Below, piece after piece: positions 46,101 through 55,277 of a stretch of DNA of 64,000 nucleotides. Origin of the DNA: Nitrososphaerota archaeon (GTDB taxonomy: Archaea > Thermoproteota > Nitrososphaeria > Nitrososphaerales > Nitrososphaeraceae). The first letter of the stretch is position 1, and each line of letters starts with the position of its first letter. The stretch spans positions 22,480 to 86,479 of the forward strand of contig VBPX01000032.1 of the NCBI GenBank assembly GCA_005877075.1, written 5' to 3'. A program made the translations under genes and the position numbers. The notes under the pieces are model-generated. The model did not search any database. It was not told the origin of the DNA and worked only from the letters and a program-made list of their open reading frames with translations.

Positions 46101-47921
46101 TTAGTCTGCATTTTCTTTTTTATGTGAATGCAATCCTCTTAATTTTTCATGTAATTGATCTATTGACAAAGTAATTCCGATTTCCTTTGCATGTGGTTGA
46201 CCTCTAGTAAATGATTTTGCAATATTTCTAACAAATTCCATGCTTAATTTTGGGGGCAGCGGAGCTTCAAATGGATCTACATGAGCATCAACTATAACGG
46301 GGACTTCATTTTCCACCATGGCTTCTTGGAGAACGGGCTTTATTTCTTCAATTTTTTTTATCGAAAATCCCTTTCCACCGCATGCTTCAGCAAATTTGAC
46401 AAAATCAATAGGAGAAAATTCTATTCCATATTCTGGATTTCCAAGAAAGGCGATTTGTTCCCATCTTATCATCCCCAAAATTTGGTTGTTAATTATTATC
46501 ACCTTAATAGGAAGATCATATTGAACAGCAGTTGCAAACTCGCTCATTAACATTGTAAATCCCCCATCTCCAACAAACGCAATGCTTTGCCTTTCTGGAT
46601 ATGCAAACTTGGCAGCGATAGCATATGGTACTGCACATCCCATGGTTGCTAGGGATCCAGAACCTGAAAACTTCATACCATTTTTTATATTCAAAAATCT
46701 AGCAGCCCAGCAAGTATTTATTCCGCTATCCACTGATATTATCGCATTATCATCCAATACATCTGATACTGCAGCAGCGATAACTTGAGGCTTAATCGGT
46801 TCATTAACTCGACTGCTCTGTTCATCTAGTTTCTCATTCCATTTTTTCATGGCATTCTGTTTTGATTTTAAAAATTGCACACTTTGCTCATTATCATTCT
46901 CTTTTGTTCTATCACGCAGTAATGGGAGTAGCTCTGACAACACTTTCTTAGAATCTCCTATCAGACCAATTCTAACCGGATACCTGAGTCCAATTTTTTC
47001 CGGTTTAATATCAATCTGAATTCCTATAGCTTGTCCGGGTTTAGGAAGATATTCAATATAAGGGAAAGATGTTCCAATCATAAATAACGTATCACATTCT
47101 GCCATGGCGTCGCTTGAAGGTTCAGTTCCCAAAATACCAATGCCCCCCAAACTATAAGGATGGTCGTCAGGGATAACGGCCTTGCCCAACATTGCCTTTA
47201 CTATCGGAGCGTTCAGTTTTTCAGCCGCAGCGATGACTTCGTCTGAGGAAAGGAGTGCGCCCTGGCCCACAAGGATTACAATTTTTTTCCCATCATTCAG
47301 AATTTCAGCAGTTTTTTCAATCAATTTTATATCAGGAGATGTTGGCGAGACAGAAATATCAGATGTATGGCCTGGAACCTTGTGTCTTGAATAATGCCCC
47401 TCTAGCTTCTGTTCTTGGACATCTATCGGAATATTGAGATGACTAACTCCTTTACGAACATGTGCAGTCCTACATGCTATATCTACTGCCATTTCTGCCT
47501 GTTGTGGCGATCCTATCATACTGTTGTAAACTGAAACATCAGAGAATAGTTGCATTAAATTCACATCTTGTTGAAAACTTGAATTCATTAAATCAGTGGA
47601 TGTTCCTCCTGTAATAACGACTACTGGAGTGTTATCCGCCTTAGCATCATACAACCCATTCAAAAGATGAATTGCACCTGGACCTGCTGTTGCCGTACAT
47701 ACTCCTAGTTTCCCGGTATATTTTGCGTAACCACATGCCATCAAAGCTGCAGATTCTTCATGTCTTACAAGAACAAATTTGATTTTGTCTTTTCTTACCC
47801 TTAAAGCTTCTATAAATCCATTGATGCTATCTCCAGGAATTCCAAATACCAGATCAACGTTCCAATCAATGAGTGCCTCAGCTATAATATCTCCAGTCTT
47901 TAAGTCCTCATATTCACTCAT
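46101..47921 (-). CDS. thiamine-pyrophosphate enzyme (pyruvate oxidase/acetolactate synthase-like)
   Basis: VFGIPGDSINGF, RHEESAALMACGYAK, GDGGFTMLMSEFATAVQYDLPIKVIIINN. Confidence 0.9.
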   Translation of the reverse strand: MSEYEDLKTGDIIAEALIDWNVDLVFGIPGDSINGFIEALRVRKDKIKFVLVRHEESAALMACGYAKYTGKLGVCTATAGPGAIHLLNGLYDAKADNTPVVVITGGTSTDLMNSSFQQDVNLMQLFSDVSVYNSMIGSPQQAEMAVDIACRTAHVRKGVSHLNIPIDVQEQKLEGHYSRHKVPGHTSDISVSPTSPDIKLIEKTAEILNDGKKIVILVGQGALLSSDEVIAAAEKLNAPIVKAMLGKAVIPDDHPYSLGGIGILGTEPSSDAMAECDTLFMIGTSFPYIEYLPKPGQAIGIQIDIKPEKIGLRYPVRIGLIGDSKKVLSELLPLLRDRTKENDNEQSVQFLKSKQNAMKKWNEKLDEQSSRVNEPIKPQVIAAAVSDVLDDNAIISVDSGINTCWAARFLNIKNGMKFSGSGSLATMGCAVPYAIAAKFAYPERQSIAFVGDGGFTMLMSEFATAVQYDLPIKVIIINNQILGMIRWEQIAFLGNPEYGIEFSPIDFVKFAEACGGKGFSIKKIEEIKPVLQEAMVENEVPVIVDAHVDPFEAPLPPKLSMEFVRNIAKSFTRGQPHAKEIGITLSIDQLHEKLRGLHSHKKENAD

Positions 47922-48180: not shown

Positions 48181-49821
48181 ATGGCTCTAAAAATGAGATA
48201 TCTTGAGCTCAATCGTAAGGTAAGAGATGCGAGAATGTTGGCGATTCAAGGAATTGCTGAAGCAGGGTCAGGACATCCAGGAGCATCTTTTTCCGCTGCA
48301 GAAATTATGGGAGTGCTTTATTTTCATAAAATGAAACACAGACCTAGCGATCCTTTATGGGAAGAAAGAGATTATTTCATAAATTCAAAAGCCCATTCTG
48401 CACCGGGATTCTATGCAGTATTATCTATTGCTGGATATATTGATTCTAAGGAAATAAAAACACTGAGAAAGCTTGGCTCACGGCTTCAAGGCCATCCAGT
48501 TAGATACTCTGAACGGCAAAAAAATCACAGCTTTCCAGGTATAGAATATTCTGGAGGATCTGAAGGAATTGGTTTATCAGTATCAATAGGAATTGCACTT
48601 GCAAAGAAACGAGATGGGGAAAAAAATAGAGTATATACTTTGATCGGTGATGGAGAATCAAATGAGGGCCAAATTTGGGAAGCAGCAATGGCTGCTTCAA
48701 AGTTCAGGCTAGACAATCTTGTGGCTATTCTGGATAGAAACATGATACAACAGGATGGATTTACAGAAGAGATAATGCCTCTGGATCCTGTTAGGGACAA
48801 ATGGGCGGCATTTAATTGGAATGTAGTAGAAGTAAATGGACATAAAATCGAACAAATAATAGATGCTTTGAGTAGAATCGAAAAAGTAGAAGATAAGCCA
48901 TCGATAATTATTGCAAATACCACCAAGGGGAAGGGTATTAAGCATATGGCAAATAATCCACAATGGCATGGTAAAGCTCCTCCAAAAAAACACGTTCCTA
49001 TATTATTGGAAGAACTTCAAAGTGAGATTTTGATAGCACCCTCTATAATTGCAGGTGAGCCTGAAAATTACGAAGAAAAAGTAAGAAGAGCTGAACGTGC
49101 TGGCGCAGATCTTATTCACTTGGATATAATGGATGGTAAATTTGTGCCGACTACCTCATTTTTTGCAGATACTATTAAACACTTGAGAAAAATTTCGAGC
49201 ATTCCTTTCGATGCTCATTTAATGATCGAAAAACCAGTTAATCACGTGGAAGATTATATTGATGCAGGTTGTGATATTGTTACAGTTCATGTTGAAGCAT
49301 GCAATGAAATGGAATTTGTGGAAATTAATAAAATGCTACTGAAAGCTGGTATCAGTCCTGGTATTGCTATAAACCCTGGAACTCCATTTCCATCTTGGTT
49401 AATTGAACATCTTGACAATATTGATGTTATGATAATTATGTCAGTAAATCCTGGCTTTGCCGGTCAAAAATTCATTCCAGAATCACTTGATAAGATGGCT
49501 GGAACAGTAAAGATTTTGAAAAGCAATAACTATAAAGGATTCATAGAAGCCGATGGAGGTATTGATGCGACAACTCTTCAGCAGGTCTTTGATGCAGGCG
49601 CCAGAATAATGGTAGCAGGCAACGCAGTATATGGATCGCCAGATATCAATTCGAATATCATACAACTGAAACATAAAGCGAATGTGGCGATCGAAACAAA
49701 ATTGTTAGAATTGGCAACTATAAATGATATGAGATCTGATTGGATAAAATCACGCAAGAACATGCTTATCCCACTGGCAAGAGAGCTTGGAATCGAGGAG
49801 GATCTTCATGCAATTAAGTGA
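48181..49821 (+). CDS. fusion: transketolase N-terminal (TPP) domain plus ribulose-phosphate 3-epimerase
   Basis: Residues ~1-280 transketolase (GHPGASFSAAEIMG, IGDGESNEGQIWEAAM); from ~nt 49021 Rpe (IAPSIIAGEPENYEEK, LDIMDGKFVP, AHLMIEKP, MSVNPGFAGQKFIPES, EADGGI). Single uninterrupted ORF. Confidence 0.93.
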   Translation: MALKMRYLELNRKVRDARMLAIQGIAEAGSGHPGASFSAAEIMGVLYFHKMKHRPSDPLWEERDYFINSKAHSAPGFYAVLSIAGYIDSKEIKTLRKLGSRLQGHPVRYSERQKNHSFPGIEYSGGSEGIGLSVSIGIALAKKRDGEKNRVYTLIGDGESNEGQIWEAAMAASKFRLDNLVAILDRNMIQQDGFTEEIMPLDPVRDKWAAFNWNVVEVNGHKIEQIIDALSRIEKVEDKPSIIIANTTKGKGIKHMANNPQWHGKAPPKKHVPILLEELQSEILIAPSIIAGEPENYEEKVRRAERAGADLIHLDIMDGKFVPTTSFFADTIKHLRKISSIPFDAHLMIEKPVNHVEDYIDAGCDIVTVHVEACNEMEFVEINKMLLKAGISPGIAINPGTPFPSWLIEHLDNIDVMIIMSVNPGFAGQKFIPESLDKMAGTVKILKSNNYKGFIEADGGIDATTLQQVFDAGARIMVAGNAVYGSPDINSNIIQLKHKANVAIETKLLELATINDMRSDWIKSRKNMLIPLARELGIEEDLHAIK

Positions 49822-50779
49822 TAAGAACGTTATTTCTGACATGCGCTCAGCCTATGGGAAAGCGTTGGTCGAACTAGGTTCAGATTCAAACATTGTCTGT
49901 GTTGGAGCTGATACTACTGATTCCCTTAAAACAAAGCTATTTGGAGATAAATTCCCTAATAGACTGTATAATGTTGGAATTGCAGAAGCAAATCTTGTTT
50001 CCATAGCTGCTGGGCTGGCTATTGCAGGAAAAGTAGTCTTCGCAAGTACGTACGCTGCATTTTTACCTGGAAGATGTCTTGATCAGATTAGAAATGCAAT
50101 CTGTTATCCATTTCTCGATGTTAAACTTGTAGTATCACATGCAGGACTTACAGTTGGTCCCGACGGTGCATCCCATCAACAAATAGAGGACATATCTACA
50201 ATGCGAACTATTCCAAACATGAGAGTACTTGTTCCCTCAGATTCGATAGCTGTAAAAAATTTGATTCCCCTTATGAGGCATACTCCCGGGCCATTTTTCA
50301 TGCGTCTTGCACGTCCATCAAATTCCAATATATACGAAGATAACTTCGATCAGTTCGATATTGGCAAGAGTAACGTTATAAAAGATGGGTCCGATATAAC
50401 TATAATCGCATGCGGTCTGATGGTTTCAAAAGGCATCGATGCGGCACAAACACTTGAAAAGGAATACGGTGTTTCTTGCAGAGTGATAGATATGTATTCT
50501 ATTAAACCAATCGATGTTGAGCTGGTATATCGTGCGGCAATAGATACCGGAGCCATTGTTACTATTGAAGAACACAGCATCATAGGAGGACTTGGAAGCG
50601 CTGTGTGTGAAGTAACAGCTGAAAATCATCCTGTTCCTGTAAATAGAATGGGTGTAACAGATATTTTTGGCGAATCAGCTCGGGAAACGGAGATAGACGC
50701 CCTTTTAAGTAAATATGGTTTAAGTTCGGATCATATTGTAGAATCTGTTCTTAAGACTAGGAAGAAGATAAAGAAATGA
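49808..50779 (+). CDS. transketolase C-terminal subunit
   Basis: RLYNVGIAEANLVSIAAGLAIAGKVVFASTYAAFLPGR...THEEHS-type pyrimidine/C-terminal domains; ATG at 49808 preferred over 49787. Confidence 0.92.
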   Translation: MQLSDKNVISDMRSAYGKALVELGSDSNIVCVGADTTDSLKTKLFGDKFPNRLYNVGIAEANLVSIAAGLAIAGKVVFASTYAAFLPGRCLDQIRNAICYPFLDVKLVVSHAGLTVGPDGASHQQIEDISTMRTIPNMRVLVPSDSIAVKNLIPLMRHTPGPFFMRLARPSNSNIYEDNFDQFDIGKSNVIKDGSDITIIACGLMVSKGIDAAQTLEKEYGVSCRVIDMYSIKPIDVELVYRAAIDTGAIVTIEEHSIIGGLGSAVCEVTAENHPVPVNRMGVTDIFGESARETEIDALLSKYGLSSDHIVESVLKTRKKIKK

Positions 50780-51438
50780 AAATTTTTCTTGATACAGCAA
50801 GTATTGATTCCATCAAGAAATTTAATGATATGGGCGTAGTTGATGGAATCACAACAAATCCTACACTCATTTCAAAAGAAAAAGGGCACCCTGAAGATAT
50901 AATGCGAGAGATTGTAAAAATTGTGAAAGGTCCAGTTAATTTGGAAGTTGTAGGAATAAAAACTGAAGAAATGGTCGAAGAGGGTTTACGATTAAAAAGA
51001 TTTGGGGATAATGTTGTTGTAAAAGTCCCCATGACAATGGAAGGCCTCAAAGCAGTCAAAAAACTTAGTGAAGATAAAATTAAGACAAATGTGACACTGA
51101 TCTTTTCTTCAAATCAAGCATTATTGGCCGCAAAGGCTGGAGCATCCTATGTTAGTCCCTTCATAGGACGACTTGATGATGGTGGTCAGGAAGGAATGAC
51201 TGTCATCAAAGAAATAGTTCAGATCTTTAACAATTATGATTTTCAAACGGAAGTTTTGGTCGCTAGTGTACGACATCCTATTCATGTTATTGAGGCAGGA
51301 AAGATAGGTGCACATATTGTTACACTTCCTCCTGATATATTGGGAAAAATGCTAACTCATCCCCTGACTGATAAAGGGCTGTCTTTATTTCTTTCCGATT
51401 GGGAAAAGGTTAAGAAAGAACACAAATACACAATCTAA
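50776..51438 (+). CDS. tal: transaldolase (TalC/fructose-6-phosphate aldolase family)
   Basis: MKIFLDTASIDSIKKFNDMGVVDGITTNPTLI, VTLIFSSNQALLAAKAGASYVSPFIGRLDD. Confidence 0.96.
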   Translation: MKIFLDTASIDSIKKFNDMGVVDGITTNPTLISKEKGHPEDIMREIVKIVKGPVNLEVVGIKTEEMVEEGLRLKRFGDNVVVKVPMTMEGLKAVKKLSEDKIKTNVTLIFSSNQALLAAKAGASYVSPFIGRLDDGGQEGMTVIKEIVQIFNNYDFQTEVLVASVRHPIHVIEAGKIGAHIVTLPPDILGKMLTHPLTDKGLSLFLSDWEKVKKEHKYTI

Positions 51439-51491: not shown

Positions 51492-53069
51492 TCAAACTTG
51501 CAAAAGTGAAAGAACTCTTTTTGGGATTTCATCAAGTTGGCTTACAACCAAAATCTTTTCATACTCTAGATATTTTAAATTTAAACCAATATTAATGGCA
51601 TTATTTACATTTTTTCCAACACCCACAGCAACCATATGAATTCCATTCATCTTGTAAGTTTTGATTGTAGAACGAACTGCGTGATAATCAGAAGGTTCAC
51701 CATCAGTTAAAGTTATCATTATATCAGGTTTGTATATCTTCATCAATGGTAACAATAAATTATAAATTTCTGCAAGTGGCGTTCCTCCGCTAGCCTTTAT
51801 CTGAACCAAGTTCCGCGCATTTATCGAGGTCCATTTAACTTCTGGATGTTTGATTACCCAACATGTAACTTTATTATTTTTTGTACTAAATGCGTATGCA
51901 GAAAATTTTACGTCCAAAAATTTCAAAGCTTCGCAAAGTGCAACGGTCGCCTTTTTATACTCCAGTTCATATTCATCTATGCTACTAGAGTGATCTAATA
52001 ACAATGCAATTTTCGTGTTTATGGAAAGTTTAAAATCCGTGAGGAATGGTTTTGCTTGTGATTCTATTATTGATTCTATATCTAACTCATCGCCAGTGAT
52101 TTCATGTATTTCTCTCCATCCTCTTTTCCAAGATCTGATAGCTGATTTTAACTTTGTAATCAAGTCATTATCGTAAATTATGCTTTCATCTAAATCTACA
52201 TTATCTGGAACGGCTAATCCAAATTGTTCCATGGTTGAGTAACCCTTGATATCTGTTTTTTTACTTTCCTTTACAAGGCTTTGATATTCTCTTATAATCT
52301 GGTCACCTTCCAAAATGTCATTTGAGAATTTTTCATTTTCTTTATTTCGAATTTTTATAACTCTTTCTATTTCTTTTATTAAATTTTTTTGTGTCATTGA
52401 CAATCCGATCTTGCTTCTAAGAGTAACAATCGGAACAGTAAAAAGAGAATCAATTTGAAGAATTTTGATTATTTTAGGAACTTGATGCTCTATCCACTCA
52501 GTTTTGTGATTTTTTTCAATAGCTTCATTGATCAACTCTCTAGCAAAGGTAACTGCATCGCGAATTCGATCTGATTCTGAACCAAATAATTCTCCCTTCA
52601 CATAACCAGTAATAAGGTATTGTGAGAAGGCTTCTACAATCTTGTGCTTTCCATATAGTGAATTCAACAAAGGCCGTGATAACCATGATATTCCTTCATT
52701 AAATATTACTTCATTTTCCATACCTCTCCATTCTCTTAATCCTAAAATCTCAATCCTCTTCAATTCTATGGAATTCAAAATATATCCGAATGCATGATCA
52801 CTGCTCAGTGCTTTTGTTGAAAATGCTAGTTTCATCGATTCATACCATAAAGAGACACGCCATTGCCGGTATTTTTGAAATTCTGTTCCGCTATAATATC
52901 TTAATGAAGGTATAGAAATAGTACTTTTTTCCAAATTTGTAGATGGTGGTTTATCTTCTATCAACAATATGATTGCCTTGTTATTTCCAGACCATCTTCT
53001 TGAAAGAAACGTTCCTAAATTTATTAGTATATCATTTCGAATTGTAAAATTTTGGAAAGAAAAGGACAT
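51492..53069 (-). CDS. VWA domain protein (CbbO/NorD-like)
   Basis: MIDAS: ALLLDHSSSID, SGGTPLAE, TLTDGEPSD. Confidence 0.85.
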   Translation of the reverse strand: MSFSFQNFTIRNDILINLGTFLSRRWSGNNKAIILLIEDKPPSTNLEKSTISIPSLRYYSGTEFQKYRQWRVSLWYESMKLAFSTKALSSDHAFGYILNSIELKRIEILGLREWRGMENEVIFNEGISWLSRPLLNSLYGKHKIVEAFSQYLITGYVKGELFGSESDRIRDAVTFARELINEAIEKNHKTEWIEHQVPKIIKILQIDSLFTVPIVTLRSKIGLSMTQKNLIKEIERVIKIRNKENEKFSNDILEGDQIIREYQSLVKESKKTDIKGYSTMEQFGLAVPDNVDLDESIIYDNDLITKLKSAIRSWKRGWREIHEITGDELDIESIIESQAKPFLTDFKLSINTKIALLLDHSSSIDEYELEYKKATVALCEALKFLDVKFSAYAFSTKNNKVTCWVIKHPEVKWTSINARNLVQIKASGGTPLAEIYNLLLPLMKIYKPDIMITLTDGEPSDYHAVRSTIKTYKMNGIHMVAVGVGKNVNNAINIGLNLKYLEYEKILVVSQLDEIPKRVLSLLQV

Positions 53070-53073
53070 CTTA

Positions 53074-53883
53074 TTATCCGAAAATGGAAGTAATCATATC
53101 CATTACCTTTCTATATTCCACCTCTCCCCACTGATCGTAAACATTGGCGTAGACCACTTCGGCAGCTTTCTTAGGCGATACTGAATTTCTTAGCAATTTT
53201 GCGAATGCTATTGATTCTCTTATGCTGGGACTATAGTAAAGCTCTTCTAAAGACGCAGCTTCCCTTAAACTATTTGCTAACTTTAGTGCGTTTTGCATCT
53301 CGGTTTCATTTGAAGCATCAATATTTACATGGCGCTTTATTATCTGCATTTCAATTTCTTTTGGCGGATACTCAAGCCTTATTCTTACTGGAAATCTACT
53401 CAATAATTGTGGAGGTAATTCTTTGGTTCCTTCATGAGAAAGTGGGTTGATTGTAGCAAATACAAACCAGTTACCTGAGGCTTTTATTACTTGACCCTCG
53501 GCTTCCTTCAGTACAATCTGCCGTCTATCATCAAGTGCTTCATCTAGACGTAAAAGTACATCGGCTTCTGCTGCATTAAGCTCATCCAAATAAAGAATCC
53601 CGCCATCTCTCATAGATTTAATCAAAATACCCTCCACAAATGTAACTTCTCCTTGATTCAAGGTTTTTGTTCCAACTAAATGCGATTCACGTGTTCTTAA
53701 ACTGAAGTTAATCGAATAAAGCATTTTTCCCATTTCGGAAGCAAATTTCCTAACTAGGCTAGTTTTACCCGTCCCTTTTGGTCCTATTATAAGTACAAAA
53801 AGTGAAGAATCATATGCTTTTTTTATTACGTTAAATGAATTATTCCAATCAAAATAATTTGAGTCGGAAATTTCTGTCGTCAT
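53074..53883 (-). CDS. MoxR/CbbQ-type AAA+ ATPase
   Basis: IGPKGTGKTSLVRKFA, GGILYLDELNAAEADVL, FVFATINP, LLSRFPVRIRL. Confidence 0.9.
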   Translation of the reverse strand: MTTEISDSNYFDWNNSFNVIKKAYDSSLFVLIIGPKGTGKTSLVRKFASEMGKMLYSINFSLRTRESHLVGTKTLNQGEVTFVEGILIKSMRDGGILYLDELNAAEADVLLRLDEALDDRRQIVLKEAEGQVIKASGNWFVFATINPLSHEGTKELPPQLLSRFPVRIRLEYPPKEIEMQIIKRHVNIDASNETEMQNALKLANSLREAASLEELYYSPSIRESIAFAKLLRNSVSPKKAAEVVYANVYDQWGEVEYRKVMDMITSIFG

Positions 53884-53930
53884 TCATTATCTATTTTTAG
53901 AACATGTAAATAAAAACTAATGGTTGAAAT

Positions 53931-55277
53931 TCATCTAGATCTTAATGTCAATTTTTTGTCATTTAAATAATCGGTGATGAGAATCTTGTCTATTTCGGCC
54001 GGATTGATGTAATAAGATCTACCCTTGACAAATTTTTCCAATTCATTTACATAACTCAACAGTGAGTCTTCTTCGCTAACCATAATTGTATCAATTTCTA
54101 TCCCAGATTTATGACATTTTTTTGCTTCTAATATCGTTTTTTCACCGATATATTGATCAACCTGTCTATACCTATAACAAAGATAAACGATTTTCCCTGA
54201 TTTAGTATCAAGCGATAATTCCTGTTTTTCCTTTATTGAATCCAGCGCCTGTTTTTCTGGAACATAAAATTGGGAATAAGGTCTTTCACCTAAAATTTTA
54301 TTTCGTTCTTCTTCTGTGTCAATGAAACAGGCACTTGGATGACCATCTGTTACTAGAACAATTTTTTTATTGGCGGTAGTTTCATTTTTAAGAATTTTTT
54401 TTGCTAATCTAAAAGCCGCTTGGTAATTTGTGTAGTGCAGAAAACCTACGCCAGATTCAAATGTTTTCAAATACGGGATATCATAGGGTGACACCTTCGA
54501 AGCTAATGCTCCAAAACCTACTATGTAAATTGAGTCTGAAGGAAAAAATTTTTGATTCAACAAAAACAAACTCCATAATGCCTTTTTTGCTGCTTCAATT
54601 CTACTCATATCTCCAAACATAGTGGAATATTTCATCGTAGAACTCAAATCTATGCAATAAACAACAGCAACACTTACGTCTTTCTTCGTTTCATATACTT
54701 CCAAATCATCCGGTTGTAAGTCAATTGGTAATTGAAGTGATGATTTGGAACCGGATCTTCTCTCAATGGCATTTAATAATGATCTTGGAACATTAATTAA
54801 TCTTAAATCATCTCCTGGTTCGTATTTTTTTGAAGTGTCTAAATTTAAAGACCCAGTCCCACTAAATGTTGTCTCATGCAATCCAATAGGCCCCTTGTTT
54901 AGTGCTCTAATTACATCCTGTAATAACTTGCTGCCTACTGCAAAAAAGCCCTTTTTGCTTAACCATTTTCTTGAATCCTTAATGTATCCTGATTCCTGTA
55001 ATTGAACGATTATTGAAGAGGCACCACTGAAGGGCTTGGATTCATCTGACTGCCCTTGATCATTTTCTTTTTCTTTTTTTAAATTCTGTAATTCTTGTTC
55101 AATTTCTTCAAGTTTAGGTTGATCTTCCTTTAGAATTTCACGACCTAAGATATTAAGAAAATCCTGGAGTAAATTTTTCGGGATTCCTTTTGTTGGTGAC
55201 CTATCTTCTTTTTTTTCGGTAAAATCTACAATACCATGATACGTAAATTTCTTAATATTGTTACTGTGTGTAGACAT
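53931..55277 (-). CDS. VWA domain protein (Mg-chelatase D-like C-terminal domain)
   Basis: VVYCIDLSSTMKYS, YTNYQAAFRLAKK, VLVTDGHPSA. Confidence 0.82.
   Translation of the reverse strand: MSTHSNNIKKFTYHGIVDFTEKKEDRSPTKGIPKNLLQDFLNILGREILKEDQPKLEEIEQELQNLKKEKENDQGQSDESKPFSGASSIIVQLQESGYIKDSRKWLSKKGFFAVGSKLLQDVIRALNKGPIGLHETTFSGTGSLNLDTSKKYEPGDDLRLINVPRSLLNAIERRSGSKSSLQLPIDLQPDDLEVYETKKDVSVAVVYCIDLSSTMKYSTMFGDMSRIEAAKKALWSLFLLNQKFFPSDSIYIVGFGALASKVSPYDIPYLKTFESGVGFLHYTNYQAAFRLAKKILKNETTANKKIVLVTDGHPSACFIDTEEERNKILGERPYSQFYVPEKQALDSIKEKQELSLDTKSGKIVYLCYRYRQVDQYIGEKTILEAKKCHKSGIEIDTIMVSEEDSLLSYVNELEKFVKGRSYYINPAEIDKILITDYLNDKKLTLRSR

Follow-up and report, generated by a model that had tools for sequence, protein, structure and literature searches.

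A transketolase N-terminal subunit fused to ribulose-phosphate 3-epimerase in Nitrososphaeraceae: gene context, split relatives and C-terminal tail

Introduction

Can one archaeal gene code for half of a transketolase and an entire ribulose-phosphate 3-epimerase (Rpe), and, if so, how did this arrangement arise and what does it do? The question is raised by an open reading frame in the window, the whole 64,000-nucleotide stretch of DNA analysed here (contig VBPX01000032.1, positions 22,480 to 86,479). The host is a soil-dwelling, ammonia-oxidising thaumarchaeon (Nitrososphaeria): full-length relatives belong to Nitrososphaeraceae, and archaeal AmoA is present in the genome from which the window was taken. 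The favoured reading, which is very probably correct, is that of a bifunctional polypeptide of single origin that assembles with a second transketolase subunit, TktC, into an epimerase-bearing transketolase serving the formation of ribose-5-phosphate from fructose-6-phosphate.

The fusion gene and its domains

The gene and the parts of its product are as follows.

48181 to 49821, plus strand: TktN-Rpe fusion gene (546 aa), from the open reading frame and full-length relatives
48214 to 48987, plus strand: transketolase TPP-binding (PP) domain, residues 12-269 (PF00456, 162.9 bits; motifs; fold 6yak_AAA, TMt 0.87)
49033 to 49632, plus strand: ribulose-phosphate 3-epimerase domain, residues 285-484 (PF00834, 189.9 bits; motifs; fold 2fli, TMt 0.92)
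49681 to 49818, plus strand: fusion-specific C-terminal tail, residues about 501-546, predicted to be helical

The ATG at 48181 is the earliest start possible for this frame, as an in-frame TAA directly precedes it. The two domain matches, Transketolase_N and Ribul_P_3_epim, are separated by a linker of about 15 residues, and the second spans nearly the whole Pfam model. The epimerase domain scores 209.1 bits against the TIGR01163 cut-off of 212.6 and exceeds the cut-off of NF004076. The preliminary description of this DNA had proposed a transketolase TPP-binding half followed in the same frame by a complete-looking Rpe and a short tail; the Pfam matches at residues 12-269 and 285-484 bear this out, and the tail, which comes after the last epimerase helix, measures about 46 residues. 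Among solved structures, the first half is closest in sequence to the N chain of 6YAK and the second to the epimerase 2FLI, and a fold search with the AlphaFold model agrees (TMt 0.87 and 0.92, respectively). The model itself has a mean pLDDT of 87.8 and a pTM of 0.90, and the orientation of TktN relative to Rpe is defined in it.

A 546-aa frame, 93-95% identical over its full length, occurs on contigs of eight other species. An assembly or frameshift artefact was considered and is ruled out, as independent genomes share the fused frame and both domains show dN/dS values of about 0.02-0.03.

The operon downstream

Two further genes follow the fusion on the same strand.

49808 to 50779, plus strand: tktC, transketolase Pyr and C-terminal domains (PF02779, 118.4 bits; PF02780, 106.9 bits; motifs)
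50776 to 51438, plus strand: transaldolase, TalC-type (TIGR00875, 298.9 bits; motifs)

The likely start of tktC is the ATG at 49808, which lies 6 bases after an AGGAGG and overlaps the fusion stop by 14 bases. Its product carries a catalytic-type Glu in GIAEAN and a His in GASHQQ. The PP domain is thus found on one chain (the fusion) and the Pyr and C-terminal domains on another (TktC), which is the arrangement of a split transketolase. The transaldolase gene overlaps tktC by 4 bases (ATGA). Both neighbours had been anticipated in the preliminary description: the C-terminal transketolase half was expected in the next gene and proved to lie in the frame that overlaps the fusion stop, and the 4-bp overlap of the transaldolase gene was found again. 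A Glu and a Phe are typical of transaldolase, while fructose-6-phosphate aldolase has Gln and Tyr instead. As judged from the E in NLEVVG and the F in SPFIGR, the predicted product of 50776-51438 is a transaldolase rather than a fructose-6-phosphate aldolase.

The operon is flanked by two loci on the minus strand. At window 46101-47921, divergent from the fusion gene, lies a TPP-dependent enzyme of the pyruvate oxidase/acetolactate synthase type with three TPP_enzyme Pfam domains. At 51492-55277, converging on the operon, lies a MoxR-vWA-like cluster in which two von Willebrand factor A proteins surround a MoxR/AAA_5-type ATPase.

Catalytic residues, selection and pathway genes

In the TktN domain of the fusion, residues H32, H72, H105, D157, N187 and H263 are present, and the TPP/Mg motif GDG..N takes the form GDGES...LDRN. 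In the Rpe domain, S288, H313, D315, M317, H346, M348, M420 and D458 are present; of these, H313, D315, H346 and D458 are presumably the metal ligands, and M317, M348 and M420 the substrate-loop Met residues. The catalytic-type Asp, His and Met motifs noted earlier are therefore present, with the metal and substrate motifs conserved. The motifs GSGHPG, SK[AG]H, LQGHP, GDGE, LDRN and WHG of the transketolase half, and PSI, IHLD.MDG, HLM, MSV.PG and ADGG of the epimerase half, are near-invariant in 65 fused homologues. The dN/dS values of both domains indicate strong purifying selection. From these sequence features, both halves look functional.

A separate observation concerns the cofactor-site loop at window 48556-48573 (protein residues 126-131), which reads GSEGIG where GSLGQG is usual. 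Many fused relatives, and some split ones, share the Glu of this loop; others keep the Leu.

Whether the genome holds a second stand-alone rpe, a question carried over from the preliminary description, was examined by a search of the window's own genome (94.9% complete), in which no second Rpe is present. In the re-checked genomes of the window's family (f1) and of family f2, second Rpe matches are partial and reach at most 36 bits; the exception is a second fused copy in one genome (G229). The possibility that the Rpe domain is a catalytically dead structural appendage is hardly credible: no point in its support was found, and it is opposed by metal- and substrate-binding motifs that are invariant or nearly so, by the standing of this domain as the only Rpe in the genome and by its dN/dS of about 0.03.

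Two RpiA-type ribose-5-phosphate isomerase genes are located elsewhere in the genome (G000:C22:6818-7330 and G000:C106:31397-31882). The ribulose monophosphate (RuMP) route was considered as well and rejected, the matches to 3-hexulose-6-phosphate synthase in the genome being weak and far below the cut-off. With a single Rpe, two RpiA genes and sub-threshold 3-hexulose-6-phosphate synthase matches, the non-oxidative pentose phosphate pathway appears complete and dependent on the fused Rpe.

Distribution and origin of the fusion

To assess the distribution, 300 genomes from across the class were sampled; the counts cover only genomes with a printed frame, and a frame of at least 490 aa is taken as fused-length. 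Among these, a fused-length frame contains the epimerase in 41/41 genomes of f1, which is Nitrososphaeraceae as judged from the full-length relatives, and in 95/96 genomes of f2, that is, in 136/137 together. The sole exception in f2 starts at base 4 of its contig and is cut by the contig end. A few f1 and f2 genomes, which are draft assemblies, are without a match. A fused-length frame is found in none of the 31 genomes of f3, f4, f5, f7, f12, f19 and f20. In four genomes of the same order (G173, G186 and G288 of f7, G268 of f9), the transketolase N match scores about 450 bits and falls in a long frame, which fits a single-chain transketolase rather than the split form.

Separate genes in the order tktN-rpe-tktC are found in at least one sampled genome each of f3, f4, f5 and f12, with tal next in most. 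The junction was read in two genomes of f3 and in the f5 genome; in each, the end of tktN and the beginning of rpe share four bases (ATGA or TTGA), so that one small indel could join both genes. Archaeal AmoA is carried by f3 and f5 and absent from the tested f4 and f12 genomes. The gene order therefore reaches beyond the amoA-positive lineages, and, since f3 and f5 are amoA-positive without the fusion, the fusion is neither needed for that lifestyle nor essential to the pathway.

In the trees of both TktN+TktC (SH-aLRT 99) and Rpe (bootstrap 100, SH-aLRT 98), the fused proteins group in a single clade. The simplest reading of these trees is that the fusion arose once; it would have formed from overlapping tktN and rpe genes within an older tktN-rpe-tktC-tal operon. 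For Nomurabacteria (L061) and Micrarchaeota (L079), an independent origin of a TktN-Rpe fusion was considered and ruled out, as the genes there are separate and adjacent, in the order rpe-tktN. The order rpe-tktN-tktC is seen at L079 5971-9231 and L061 5995-8648; tal is also included in L079, where all four reading frames share one frame. This clustering is apparently independent.

The C-terminal tail

In every full-length fused protein of the set, the Rpe match is followed by a further 38-57 residues that show the pattern LL..A..LG...W. The split Rpe proteins examined end at or just past the last barrel helix, and the pattern is absent from all of them. In the AlphaFold model, the tail is helical and confidently predicted, with helices at residues 489-514, 518-524, 526-536 and 539-545; the model of a marine homologue (L041), built to residue 524, contains the first long tail helix only. 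The tail has a dN/dS of about 0.03, as low as that of both enzyme domains, although its last codons also hold the tktC ribosome-binding site and start. A search for a known family gave no Pfam match, and the best PDB profile match (E 0.11, to a designed protein) is not credible.

The tail may help to seat the epimerase on the transketolase. According to a bolder proposal, the fusion brought with it a new, conserved helical tail by which Rpe is docked onto TktC, giving shape to a transketolase-epimerase(-transaldolase) particle in which substrate is truly handed over; this is quite improbable. It is rather likely, on the other hand, that the fusion is only a device for stoichiometry and co-assembly, created when a frame change across the overlap joined two co-translated genes and retained because its reversal is improbable, with the tail as a putative helical cap or docking element required for placing Rpe on the transketolase. 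The four-base tktN/rpe overlap in the split relatives, the single origin of the fusion and the confinement of the conserved tail to fused proteins all speak for this explanation.

Proposed function

According to the favoured reading, the gene would yield a single chain whose N half acts as the TPP-pyrophosphate-binding subunit of a split transketolase and whose second half acts as Rpe. TktN-Rpe and the separate TktC would probably form an alpha2beta2 core as in Carboxydothermus, with an epimerase on each transketolase. Together with the transaldolase of the operon and the ribose-5-phosphate isomerase encoded elsewhere, a complete non-oxidative pentose phosphate pathway would result. Flux most likely runs from fructose-6-phosphate to ribose-5-phosphate, the host being an autotroph with gluconeogenesis; in that direction, xylulose-5-phosphate, a transketolase product, is the substrate of the epimerase.

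Another idea is that of direct channelling, in which xylulose-5-phosphate would pass within the fusion from the active site of transketolase straight to that of the epimerase. The two enzymes catalyse successive steps of the pathway, their fusion extends throughout two families, and the predicted relative orientation of TktN and Rpe is defined (pTM 0.90). However, the transketolase active site forms only together with TktC (PMC7661550). Moreover, Rpe works elsewhere as a free enzyme, and co-expression and stoichiometry account for the fusion equally well, so that direct channelling is unlikely.

Relation to known systems

The split transketolase of Carboxydothermus hydrogenoformans is a characterised, active alpha2beta2 enzyme (6YAK, PMC7661550). 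As in that enzyme, the PP domain lies on one chain and the Pyr and C-terminal domains on the other, and the N chains are 44% identical; the C. hydrogenoformans N chain, however, has neither epimerase nor tail. Like stand-alone Rpe (2FLI, 1RPX, TIGR01163), the second half forms a full barrel in which every catalytic motif is kept (2FLI: 40% identity, TMt 0.92), but it sits behind TktN and is followed by the extra tail. Transketolase expression in the non-oxidative pentose phosphate pathway is reported in a metagenome paper on ammonia-oxidising archaea (PMC11131427).

The architecture is already known. Padalko et al. (2024) report a transketolase N-terminus fused to Rpe in 73/98 Thaumarchaeota assemblies (cluster 341.1) and, in the passage concerned, take it to indicate that the non-oxidative pentose phosphate pathway is complete (PMC11237513). 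The window gene is a member of this published group: compared with the fusion as presented in that passage, domains, order and archaeal group are the same, and nothing essential differs. The preliminary description had left room for the architecture being widely described already; this holds in part, for the assemblies covered, although the survey gives the fusion only a few sentences. The present analysis refines that passage by three points absent from it: the split sister state, the single origin and the fusion-specific tail. Neither biochemistry for either activity nor proteomic proof of one lasting chain in vivo was found.

Significance

The discovery value beyond the 2024 report is little, and the function of the tail is the only point of some interest left by the fusion. 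The fixation of the fusion in two whole families, together with neighbouring split genes in their relatives, offers a clean natural comparison of fusion gain. The pathway that the fusion serves is the pentose phosphate pathway by which globally abundant ammonia-oxidising archaea make nucleotide sugars.
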